In this document: positions 36,801 through 39,880 of the stretch, one piece after another
How the letters are laid out: each line of letters starts with the position of its first letter
Numbering within the stretch: position 1 is the stretch's first letter
DNA from: Candidatus Eiseniibacteriota bacterium
GTDB taxonomy: Bacteria > Eisenbacteria > RBG-16-71-46
Direction: 5' to 3'
NCBI GenBank assembly: GCA_016223045.1
Contig: JACRPT010000023.1
Coordinates: 1-40,561, forward strand
Length of the DNA stretch: 40,561 nt
The notes under the pieces: generated by a model
What the model was told of the DNA's origin: nothing
What the model saw: the letters and a program-made list of their open reading frames with translations, nothing else
The model's database searches: none
Position numbers and translations under genes: made by a program

Positions 36801-37187
36801 TCATCCGGCTGCCGATGCAGGGCCGTGATGCGTCCCCAGGTCATGGTCCCGGCGGGGGTCGGGACATCACCGAACCCCTGGATGCGCATGTTCCGGGCTT
36901 GCGCCACGCAGGCGCTGCCGTCCGTGCTGTTGCGGCGCCGGACCGCCGCGGCTGTATGGCGCTGGCGCGGGCAGAGCCGGACTGCACCGCTCCGGGCGGG
37001 CGCGCCGCGCGGGTGTACGGCGCGGGACAGCCAGCGGGTCGCGCCGCACGCGACGCCGCCATCCCGACGGGACTCCCGAGGCCATTCGGCGCGGCCGCGG
37101 CGCACACGTCATCCGCGACGTCTTCATGGCACTTCGATTGCTGCGAGCGCCCGCGACACGCATGAATCCCCCACCCCGGAGGTCGCA
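36801..37187. other. Long intergenic region upstream of the Asp-box protein
   Basis: 387 bases. It carries a near-perfect sigma-54 promoter at 37127-37142 and, about 270 bases upstream, a 6-bp inverted repeat (GTCCCG / CGGGAC, 36846-36865) that could be a regulator site. Open frames on both strands have no recognisable features, so I see no gene. Confidence 0.5.
37127..37142 (+). promoter_or_regulatory. Near-perfect sigma-54 (RpoN) promoter
   Basis: TGGCACttcgaTTGCT matches the -24/-12 consensus TGGCAC-N5-TTGCW at every position, with GG and GC ten bases apart. Transcription would begin near 37153, about 35 bases before the ATG and upstream of the GGAGG ribosome-binding site. Confidence 0.7.
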
Positions 37188-38819
37188 ATGAGGCCCGGCA
37201 CCCTGCTCGCAGTGCTGGCGTTCGCCATCCCCTTTCAGGCCGTCGAAGTGGCGGCCGCAGTCCCGGTCCCGGTCCACACCCGCAACGTCTGTTCCGATGG
37301 CCGCGGCACGCGCCAGATGGAGCCGGCCGTCGCGACCAGGGACTCCGTGATCGTCGTCTCGTTCAACGACACGCGGGGGCTCCTGTGTCCGACGTCGGGC
37401 TACCAGACGTCGGGCTGGTCGTATTCGCTCGACGGCGGCGCCACGTTTCACGAAGGCGCCCCGCTTCCCGGAGGCAACCGCTGGTCAGCCGACCAGTGGC
37501 TCGCCGTGGGCCCGGACGGCGCCTTCTATCACTGCGCGCTGTCGATCGAGCCTTCGCGCCACGGTGTCATCCTCGATCGCGGCGTGGCCGGCGCCGGTGG
37601 CATCACCTGGAGCGAGCCGATCGTGTACGTGCCGCTCACCGGATCGTGCGACAAGCCGGCCATGGCCATCGATCCGGCGAGCGGGACGATCTACGTCGCG
37701 TACACCGTGTTCGCCGGCGCCACGAATCCGGGGAGCGGCCTGTGGCTGCTGCGCTCCACGGACGGCGCGCAGAGCTTCCTGCCACCGGTCAAGGTGGCGT
37801 CGAACGTGGCTACGTCCGGCGCCAACGCGGTATTCCCGGTCGTCGAGCCGGACGGCTCCCTCGCGCTCGCCTGGAAATCCGGCCGCAACACCGATTCGAC
37901 CGTGACGATCTACTTCGCCCGCTCGACCGACGGCGGCAGTGCGTTCAGCGCACCCATCATCGTCGGGACCGCGTGCCCGTTCAACGCTCCGGGAACCGAC
38001 GGTTCGCCGGTGTTCCCGCAGCTCGCGCAGGACCGCAGCTCGGGACCGGGCCGTGGCGCGCTCTACCTGGCCTGGCAGACCGCGTGTCCGCGCGCGGGCG
38101 TGAGCACTCCCGGCGACGTGGTCGTGACGCGCTCGGACGACCACGGCGCATCCTGGAGCGCGCCGGTGGTGGCCAACGGCGATTCCGGCTCGGCGATGCA
38201 CGTGCAGCCGACGCTGACCGTCGACCTCTACGGCCGTCCGTGGCTGTTCGTCTATCGCGTGATTCCCATGGGCGACAGCTCGCTCGCCACCCTGGTACGC
38301 ACGCGCTCGAGTGACGGCGGCGCCCACTTCGAGCCGCTGCAGGACGTCAGCGACGTCCCTTCGACCTGGGGCGTCACGACCGAAGCCGGACCGCAGAACT
38401 ACGGCGAGTACATCAGTGCGATCACGACCGGCGACCGCGTCGATGTCGTGTACTGCGACGCCCGCTTCCGGGACCCCGACGTCTACTGGACCGCGTTCAC
38501 GACTTCGGACGTCGCGGCCGCTCCCGCTCCGACCGGCCCCGCCCGCACTTTCCTGGATCCGATCGCGCCGAACCCGGGCACGAGCCGGGTGCGGCTGCGG
38601 TTCGGGCTCGAGCAACGGGCGGACATCACCCTGGCGATCTACGACGTCGGCGGCCGGCTCGTGCGCTCGCTCGAGCGCGGGACCCGCGATCCCGGGACGT
38701 TCTCGGCCGGGTGGGACCTGCGCGACGAGCGCGGACGCCCCGTCGCACCCGGGATCTACCTGGCGCGACTGCGCAGCGGAGCCGCGGCCGTGACGCGGAC
38801 GGTCGCGGTGTCACGGTAG
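37188..38819 (+). CDS. Exported sialidase-like (Asp-box) propeller protein with FlgD-like C-terminus
   Basis: 543 residues. The signal peptide is MRPGTLLAVLAFAIPFQAVE with cleavage near VAAA. The body has five Asp-box-like motifs typical of six-bladed sialidase/BNR propellers: SLDGGATF, STDGAQSF, STDGGSAF, SDDHGASW and SSDGGAHF. The arginine triad and other catalytic residues of true sialidases are not evident, so enzymatic activity is doubtful. From about residue 455 an FlgD-like domain follows (IAPNPGTSRVRLRF ... GIYLARLRSG). GGAGG precedes ATG 37188. It lies behind a sigma-54 promoter, implying activator-dependent expression. Confidence 0.8.
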   Translation: MRPGTLLAVLAFAIPFQAVEVAAAVPVPVHTRNVCSDGRGTRQMEPAVATRDSVIVVSFNDTRGLLCPTSGYQTSGWSYSLDGGATFHEGAPLPGGNRWSADQWLAVGPDGAFYHCALSIEPSRHGVILDRGVAGAGGITWSEPIVYVPLTGSCDKPAMAIDPASGTIYVAYTVFAGATNPGSGLWLLRSTDGAQSFLPPVKVASNVATSGANAVFPVVEPDGSLALAWKSGRNTDSTVTIYFARSTDGGSAFSAPIIVGTACPFNAPGTDGSPVFPQLAQDRSSGPGRGALYLAWQTACPRAGVSTPGDVVVTRSDDHGASWSAPVVANGDSGSAMHVQPTLTVDLYGRPWLFVYRVIPMGDSSLATLVRTRSSDGGAHFEPLQDVSDVPSTWGVTTEAGPQNYGEYISAITTGDRVDVVYCDARFRDPDVYWTAFTTSDVAAAPAPTGPARTFLDPIAPNPGTSRVRLRFGLEQRADITLAIYDVGGRLVRSLERGTRDPGTFSAGWDLRDERGRPVAPGIYLARLRSGAAAVTRTVAVSR

Positions 38820-39001: not shown

Positions 39002-39880
39002 ATGGTACTCCGCTTCGACAGGATCGCCGCCCTTGGCCTCGTATGCGGCGTGCTGATGGCCCCGACAGCCGCGCACGCCGTGAACCTGGTCCCCAACGGC
39101 AGCTTCGAGAGCTACGTGAGCTGCCCCACCAGCTTCACCCAGCTCTATCAGGCCGCGCCGTGGAATGCGCCGACCACCGGCACTTCGGACTACCTGAATG
39201 CCTGCGCGCCGGTGTCCTTCCCTTCGGTGAACGTGCCGCAGAACGAGCAGGGCTACCAGACCGCACTCAGCGGCGTGGGGTACGCCGGGCTCATCCCGCT
39301 GTCGGCTGCGGCGGACTACCGCGAGTACGTGCAGGCGCCGCTCACCTCGCCGCTCGTGGCGAACGCGTCGTACCTGGTGAAGTTCTACGTGTCGCTGGCG
39401 GACAGCTCGATCCTCGCGATCGACCGACTGGGCGCGTACCTGTCGGTGGGCCCGGTGGGCCCGGTAGGCAACTACGCGCCGCTCGCGGTGACGCCGCAGG
39501 TGGAGAGCCCCGCCAACGTGTACCTGACCAACTCCACCGCCTGGACGCTGGTGAGCGGTGTGGTGGTGGCGAGCGGTGGCGAGGACCACATCGTGATTGG
39601 CAGCTTCCGCGACGATGCGAGCACGGCGACGGTTCCGGGCCCGGGCCTGTGGCCGGGCGGCGCCTACTACTACGTTGACGACGTGAGCGTGGAGCTGGCG
39701 CTGCCCACCGAGCAGGCCTGCTGCATGTCGGACAACAGCTGCTCGATGCAGTTCCCCGGCGAGTGCACGCTGCTCGGTGGCACGCCGGGTGGGTCCGGGA
39801 CCACCTGCACGCCCAACCCGTGCGTGCCCACGAAGACGCACTTGAAGAGCTGGGGCGCGGTGAAGACGATCTATCGGTGA
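39002..39880 (+). CDS. Exported protein with Cys-rich C-terminal module and WG-K-YR tail
   Basis: 292 residues. The signal peptide is FDRIAALGLVCGVLMAPTAA (cleavage near AHA). The mature protein opens with VNLVPNGSFESYVSCPTSF, a jelly-roll-like (carbohydrate-binding-type) opening common in exported proteins of the Bacteroidetes side, and continues with beta-rich sequence to YYYVDDVSVEL (near residue 235). A Cys-rich module follows (ACCMSDNSCS, then GECTLLGG and CTPNPC), and the protein ends in KSWGAVKTIYR. There is no FlgD-like domain. The tail may be a different sorting or anchoring signal (inference). AGGAG lies seven bases before the ATG. It follows the Asp-box gene by 182 bases. Confidence 0.7.
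   Translation: MVLRFDRIAALGLVCGVLMAPTAAHAVNLVPNGSFESYVSCPTSFTQLYQAAPWNAPTTGTSDYLNACAPVSFPSVNVPQNEQGYQTALSGVGYAGLIPLSAAADYREYVQAPLTSPLVANASYLVKFYVSLADSSILAIDRLGAYLSVGPVGPVGNYAPLAVTPQVESPANVYLTNSTAWTLVSGVVVASGGEDHIVIGSFRDDASTATVPGPGLWPGGAYYYVDDVSVELALPTEQACCMSDNSCSMQFPGECTLLGGTPGGSGTTCTPNPCVPTKTHLKSWGAVKTIYR

Follow-up and report, generated by a model that had tools for sequence, protein, structure and literature searches.

A putative sigma-54 promoter upstream of a gene for a predicted secreted Asp-box/FlgD-tail protein in a Candidatus Eiseniibacteriota genome

The element at positions 37127–37142 of the analyzed window (the whole 40,561-nt stretch of DNA, which is contig C14 in an assembly comprising 164 contigs and 3.88 Mb) very probably functions as a sigma-54 (RpoN) promoter for the downstream gene, which encodes a 543-aa protein (Table 1). 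The match to the sigma-54 consensus, its placement in front of the gene, the presence of rpoN and enhancer-binding protein (EBP) genes, and the use of the same motif at promoters across the genome were all established computationally, and from these observations we infer promoter activity, the transcription start, and dependence on an EBP.

Table 1. Features of the putative sigma-54 promoter and of the gene that it precedes (window coordinates).
Feature	Position	Strand	Basis or comment
-24 element TGGCAC	37127..37132	+	Sequence match
-12 element TTGCT	37138..37142	+	Sequence match
Expected transcription start	37153	+	Predicted from the typical spacing of 11-13 nt after the -12 GC
Ribosome-binding site GGAGG	37178..37182	+	5 nt before ATG; starts 35 bases after the site
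Non-coding gap holding the promoter	36801..37187	+	Gene calls, coding log-odds, scan
Dyad ACGTC-N6-GACGT	37106-37121		Seen by eye in the gap
Secreted Asp-box/FlgD-tail protein, 543 aa	37188..38819	+	Gene call, Pfam, fold search
Probable signal peptide MRPGTLLAVLAFAIPFQAVEVAAA	37188..37259	+	Hydrophobicity rule; end set by eye
C-terminal FlgD_ig domain	38577..38765	+	Pfam

Promoter element and upstream non-coding region

Sigma-54 promoters share the consensus TGGCAC-N5-TTGCW, which comprises a GG at -24 and a GC at -12 with 10 bases between them. The plus-strand element TGGCACTTCGATTGCT matches this pattern exactly, as the initial annotation had stated for all defined positions, and its GG (37128–37129) and GC (37140–37141) are separated by the 10 bases characteristic of -24/-12 promoters. 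The site is located 45 nt upstream of the ATG, and the well-placed ribosome-binding site noted earlier was found at the reported distance. At the promoter on contig C113 and its 20 orthologous sites, the conserved 5' end of an RNA lies at approximately the same distance from the -12 GC as the start predicted here.

The surrounding gap was described initially as one of the longest gene-free stretches of the window; with 387 bases, it is indeed the fourth longest according to a codon-usage gene caller, which was trained on this genome and may predict less exact starts in the relatives to which it was also applied. The open frame of the gene reaches upstream to position 36825. Nonetheless, the segment 36825–37187 read in this frame has a coding log-odds of -33 over 121 codons, whereas the gene itself scores approximately +16 per 100 codons, which favors the ATG at 37188 as the start. 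A crude consensus scan found no sigma-70-like promoter in the gap, which constitutes weak evidence because the DNA is 74% G+C, and a simple scan found no terminator there. Candidate activator-site dyads in the gap are limited to weak, GC-rich ones.

Genomic distribution of the motif

As a string, the motif is not enriched. Two exact matches were found in the 3.88-Mb genome (the window site and a site on contig C24), compared with 1.6 expected from composition and 3 for a reversed-pattern control. Allowing up to one mismatch, the genome contains 53 sites vs. 92 for the reversed pattern, and within the window 10 matches with up to two mismatches were observed vs. 12.6 expected. The positions of the sites do depart from chance. 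Both exact sites are located between 10 and 130 nt upstream of a same-strand start codon, compared with an expectation of 0.043, and the same holds for 21 of the 53 sites with up to one mismatch (1.4 expected; the background fraction, determined from 242,506 bases of the same genome, is 2.67% of positions). Thirty-five of the 53 sites fall into gaps between genes and 18 into genes, none of the latter being exact; the next called gene is on the same strand for 31 gap sites and on the other strand for one, whereas three have no called gene in the analyzed piece. Among the first 30 of the 92 control sites, only 5 are in gaps (Fisher P 1.3e-5 vs. 35/53). Thus, the earlier claim that chance occurrence at precisely this place is unlikely stands with respect to position and not with respect to string count alone. 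Since sigma-54 is described as binding widely inside genes in E. coli as well (PMC4591121), the motif alone is no proof of a promoter.

Sigma-54 machinery

The search for rpoN and EBP genes, proposed initially as a check, revealed both. The sigma-54 DNA-binding domain (PF04552) is encoded in all 19 genomes searched, including the studied one, where it scores 214.8 bits on contig C5; the corresponding protein carries the C-terminal RpoN box ARRTVAKYRE, whereas its N-terminal part extends beyond the contig end. The genome contains 24 matches to the EBP domain (PF00158), of which 19 are strong. The loops of the strong EBPs are of the GAFTGA type in 13 cases, GAFTDA in four, and neither in the remaining two. 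None of the PF00158 matches is located on the window's own contig.

Transcription by the sigma-54 holoenzyme requires an EBP. Given rpoN, the EBPs, and a motif that marks promoters, EBP dependence of the window gene follows from this established mechanism, and the gene probably stays silent unless an activator protein switches it on. In this scheme, the RpoN-containing polymerase would sit in a closed complex at the -24 and -12 elements until an NtrC-type EBP, attached to the non-coding DNA upstream, opens the complex by ATP hydrolysis; transcription would start near position 37153 only while the EBP is active, so that a surface or secreted protein would be produced on demand. The initial proposal of a surface protein under an NtrC-type activator is thereby supported with respect to rpoN, the EBPs, and the genome-wide promoter use of the motif, its activator part being derived from the mechanism.

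Other sigma-54 sites in the genome and in relatives

Seven of the 19 strong EBP genes (on contigs C24, C32, C37, C66, C100, C113, and C158) are followed by a same-strand site in the gap directly behind them. On C100, the order is EBP, promoter, prepilin, which is a classic and well-known arrangement. Near or perfect dyads resembling activator sites are located 110–190 nt upstream of the sites on C24, C158, and C113; these dyads have no match in the window gap beyond shuffles at P below 0.09. A search for an activator site that the window promoter might share with other sigma-54 promoters yielded GC-rich chance matches only, and this possibility was rejected. Further targets include prepilins on C105, C161, and C164, as well as lipoprotein-like or secreted proteins. 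By a crude hydrophobicity test, 15 of the 30 distinct targets look exported; among background genes, the test was positive for 51 of 224 (P 0.002). One lipoprotein gene is preceded by two sigma-54-like sites located 37 bp apart (C142:56834 and 56871; L122:1501-1553).

In the class-wide search, exact sites were found in 42 of 47 genomes, 141 sites in total. Forty-six of the 49 sites examined are in gaps, and 35 of these precede a same-strand gene. The sites are located upstream of prepilin genes in three genomes of the family and upstream of genes for lipoproteins of approximately 150 residues in eight genomes. The sites described in this section serve as the motif's positive controls within the lineage.

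Two small proteins were observed behind sites of this kind. On C66 (L073:2980-3200; L240; L193), a conserved EBP with a GAFTDA loop, 78–87% identical in most genomes of the family, is followed by a sigma-54 site, a 22-residue Lys/Ala protein MAKKKAAKKKATKKKGAAKKKK, and a hairpin, an arrangement that is repeated in genome G006. In genome G020, an exact sigma-54 site precedes a gene for a 138-residue Lys-rich protein.

Encoded protein and its homologs

The product had been described as a secreted Asp-box/FlgD-domain protein, and domain analysis bears this out: BNR_2 reaches 39.8 bits and FlgD_ig 34.8 bits, above the respective Pfam cut-offs of 31.4 and 27, the Asp-box pattern has four matches, and a signal peptide is probable. 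Foldseek searches with an AlphaFold2 model (mean pLDDT 73) returned sialidases as the best matches (E 5.8e-11, TM about 0.4), and no PDB chain matches the protein by sequence. The predicted structure is thus a sialidase-like propeller fold with Asp-boxes, for which we do not claim enzyme activity.

The C-terminal tail scores just below the cut-off of the type IX secretion system (T9SS) model TIGR04183 (22.3 bits vs. 23) and at 16.7 bits vs. 27 with Por_Secre_tail. The genome encodes a SprA-like T9SS translocon (PF14349, 100.4 bits, C157:9346-10614), as do 14 of 18 relatives, and therefore the FlgD-like tail, which is of a type employed by this system, could serve type IX secretion.

No close ortholog of the protein was found in the 47 genomes of the class, the longer matches being 27–36% identical. 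Apart from the window gene itself, a start was called at 18 of the 29 homolog loci; the element was not found upstream of these distant homologs, and the best site there scores 12.7 bits (the sigma-54 weight matrix followed published consensus tables).

A different C-terminal motif, similar to S/T-W-G-x-[VIL]-K-x-[ILM]-Y-R, was observed at the very end of 6 of 456 checked proteins, encoded at 39002-39880 of the window and at L012, L068, L078, L165, and L321. Most of them have a signal peptide, and the motif is possibly a further sorting tail.

FlgD-tail proteins and sigma-54

FlgD_ig domains have 98 matches in the genome, and 88 of the corresponding genes could be tested; the other ten lack a gene start, are open at a contig end, or were not called. 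It had been asked initially whether RpoN sites cluster before genes with this C-terminal domain, and they do not: sites of at least 15 bits precede 2 of the 88 genes (the window gene and a gene on C35), and sites of at least 13 bits precede 3, as many as for the reversed control. Thus, sigma-54 is not a general regulator of the FlgD-tail class.

Two EBP-linked operons nevertheless carry tail proteins. The C24 operon (L071) consists of an EBP gene, the exact site, a gene for a receiver-like 137-aa protein that lacks the usual Asp of receivers and has no Pfam match, and a gene for an FG-GAP propeller with a Por_Secre_tail score of 23.5 bits, under the cut-off of 27. The C158 operon (L079/L325) contains an EBP gene, a site, a receiver gene, and a gene for a 2653-aa protein with FlgD_ig at 33 bits. 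These cassettes, together with two further single genes on C35 and C148, would fit a reading in which the window site points to a sigma-54 regulon dedicated to FlgD/T9SS-tail proteins, analogous to the PEP-CTERM genes under PrsR. We regard such a regulon as unlikely, since a site of at least 15 bits precedes only 2 of 88 FlgD_ig genes, whereas 99 of 167 PEP-CTERM genes of proteobacteria are reported to carry a sigma-54 site (PMC1569441); moreover, the C35 case is doubtful, as the subtilase domain encoded there is truncated at its beginning and the site may be inside a broken gene. A less general scheme, an outer-surface sigma-54 program of the lineage in which dedicated EBPs with their own operators would switch single tail proteins, as in the C24 and C158 cassettes, and in which scattered single genes, the window gene among them, would answer to one of these EBPs in trans, is offered as a tentative and rather doubtful suggestion.

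Alternative explanations for the window site

The main alternative to a functional promoter is a chance match, the gene being read from another promoter, e.g., a housekeeping one missed by the consensus scan in GC-rich DNA. The composition-based expectation, the reversed-pattern count, and the absence of the element before distant homologs speak in favor of chance. However, at promoter distance the observed numbers exceed the expected ones for both the exact sites and those with up to one mismatch, and no exact site is located within a gene; hence, we consider a chance match highly unlikely. Alternatively, sigma-54 could be bound at the site for another purpose, the site being silent, regulating antisense transcription, or serving as the promoter of an untranslated RNA. 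A precedent exists elsewhere in the genome, with a sigma-54 site located upstream of a conserved non-coding RNA; at the window gene, however, the 45 nt to the ATG, with the ribosome-binding site in between, leave no room for an RNA except as the 5' end of the mRNA, and this alternative appears extremely improbable. A functional sigma-54 promoter of the 543-aa protein gene is therefore the preferred explanation.

Comparison with known sigma-54 systems

The window promoter resembles known -24/-12 promoters with NtrC-type EBPs in its consensus, its spacing, the long upstream gap, and the presence of rpoN and EBPs in the genome. A close parallel is provided by the PEP-CTERM proteins controlled by PrsK/PrsR and sigma-54, which, similarly to the window gene, are described as products of single secreted-protein genes with a sorting tail, long gaps, and a -24/-12 site (PMC1569441). 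The reported mean distance from the motif to the start of PEP-CTERM genes is 71 nt (PMC1569441), compared with 45 nt at the window gene. The two systems differ in the sorting tail and the secretion system, and also in coverage, since the majority of PEP-CTERM genes reported in that source have a site. The arrangement of a PilR-type EBP followed by a prepilin gene, represented here on C100, involves the same kind of promoter, whereas no EBP gene is located in the vicinity of the window gene.

Sigma-54 was proposed by Francke et al. to be a controller of the bacterial exterior (PMC3162934), a theme matched by the proportion of exported-looking targets in this genome. In that source, the theme is based on how surface polymers are synthesized and transported (PMC3162934), whereas prepilins, lipoproteins, and secreted proteins make up most of the targets found here. 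The window promoter is a case of ordinary sigma-54 regulation that fits the exterior theme and adds a member to it, not a new kind of control. Its significance is that sigma-54 control would reach FlgD/T9SS-tail secreted proteins in an uncultured lineage with RpoN, approximately 19 EBPs, and a SprA-type translocon; judging by titles and the opening parts of abstracts, none of the papers found on T9SS with RpoN is about such control. The practical yield of the analysis is a set of approximately 30 likely sigma-54 target genes in the genome and an unexpected structured RNA. The C24 and C158 cassettes and this RNA are more interesting than the window promoter itself.

A candidate structured RNA behind the C113 EBP

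On C113, from position 38052 on (L066:16053-16560; L363-L383), a gene for a TPR/GAF EBP is followed by a sigma-54 site and a structured RNA of approximately 450 nt. This stretch folds far better than its shuffles (z -6.7) and is conserved in all 20 genomes of the family, with a weak match in one additional genome. The best-scoring sigma-54 site is at the same place at 21 of 21 loci (11.7–15.8 bits), and the hairpin CGGAGGGGGGGACCUCC / GGAGGGGGGGACCUCC is located at the expected transcript start at all of them, with small variations. RNAalifold yielded 47 pairs; by raw count, both partners are changed in one or more sequences for 17 of them. The RNA has no Rfam match at the thresholds; with E up to 1, two matches appear far below the gathering scores. 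A lipoprotein gene lies approximately 560–860 nt after the site at 20 of 21 loci, and thus both a free RNA and a long leader are possible. We consider the stretch a candidate for a new non-coding RNA transcribed from an EBP-linked sigma-54 promoter or, alternatively, for a long lipoprotein-gene leader.

A second TPR-type EBP gene, on C32 (L077:6845-7435), is followed by dyads, a sigma-54 site, and approximately 570 nt with no called gene, downstream of which tRNA-Thr/Tyr/Gly/Thr and tuf are located. The C32 stretch has a folding z of -2.3 and is partly similar to the C113 RNA.
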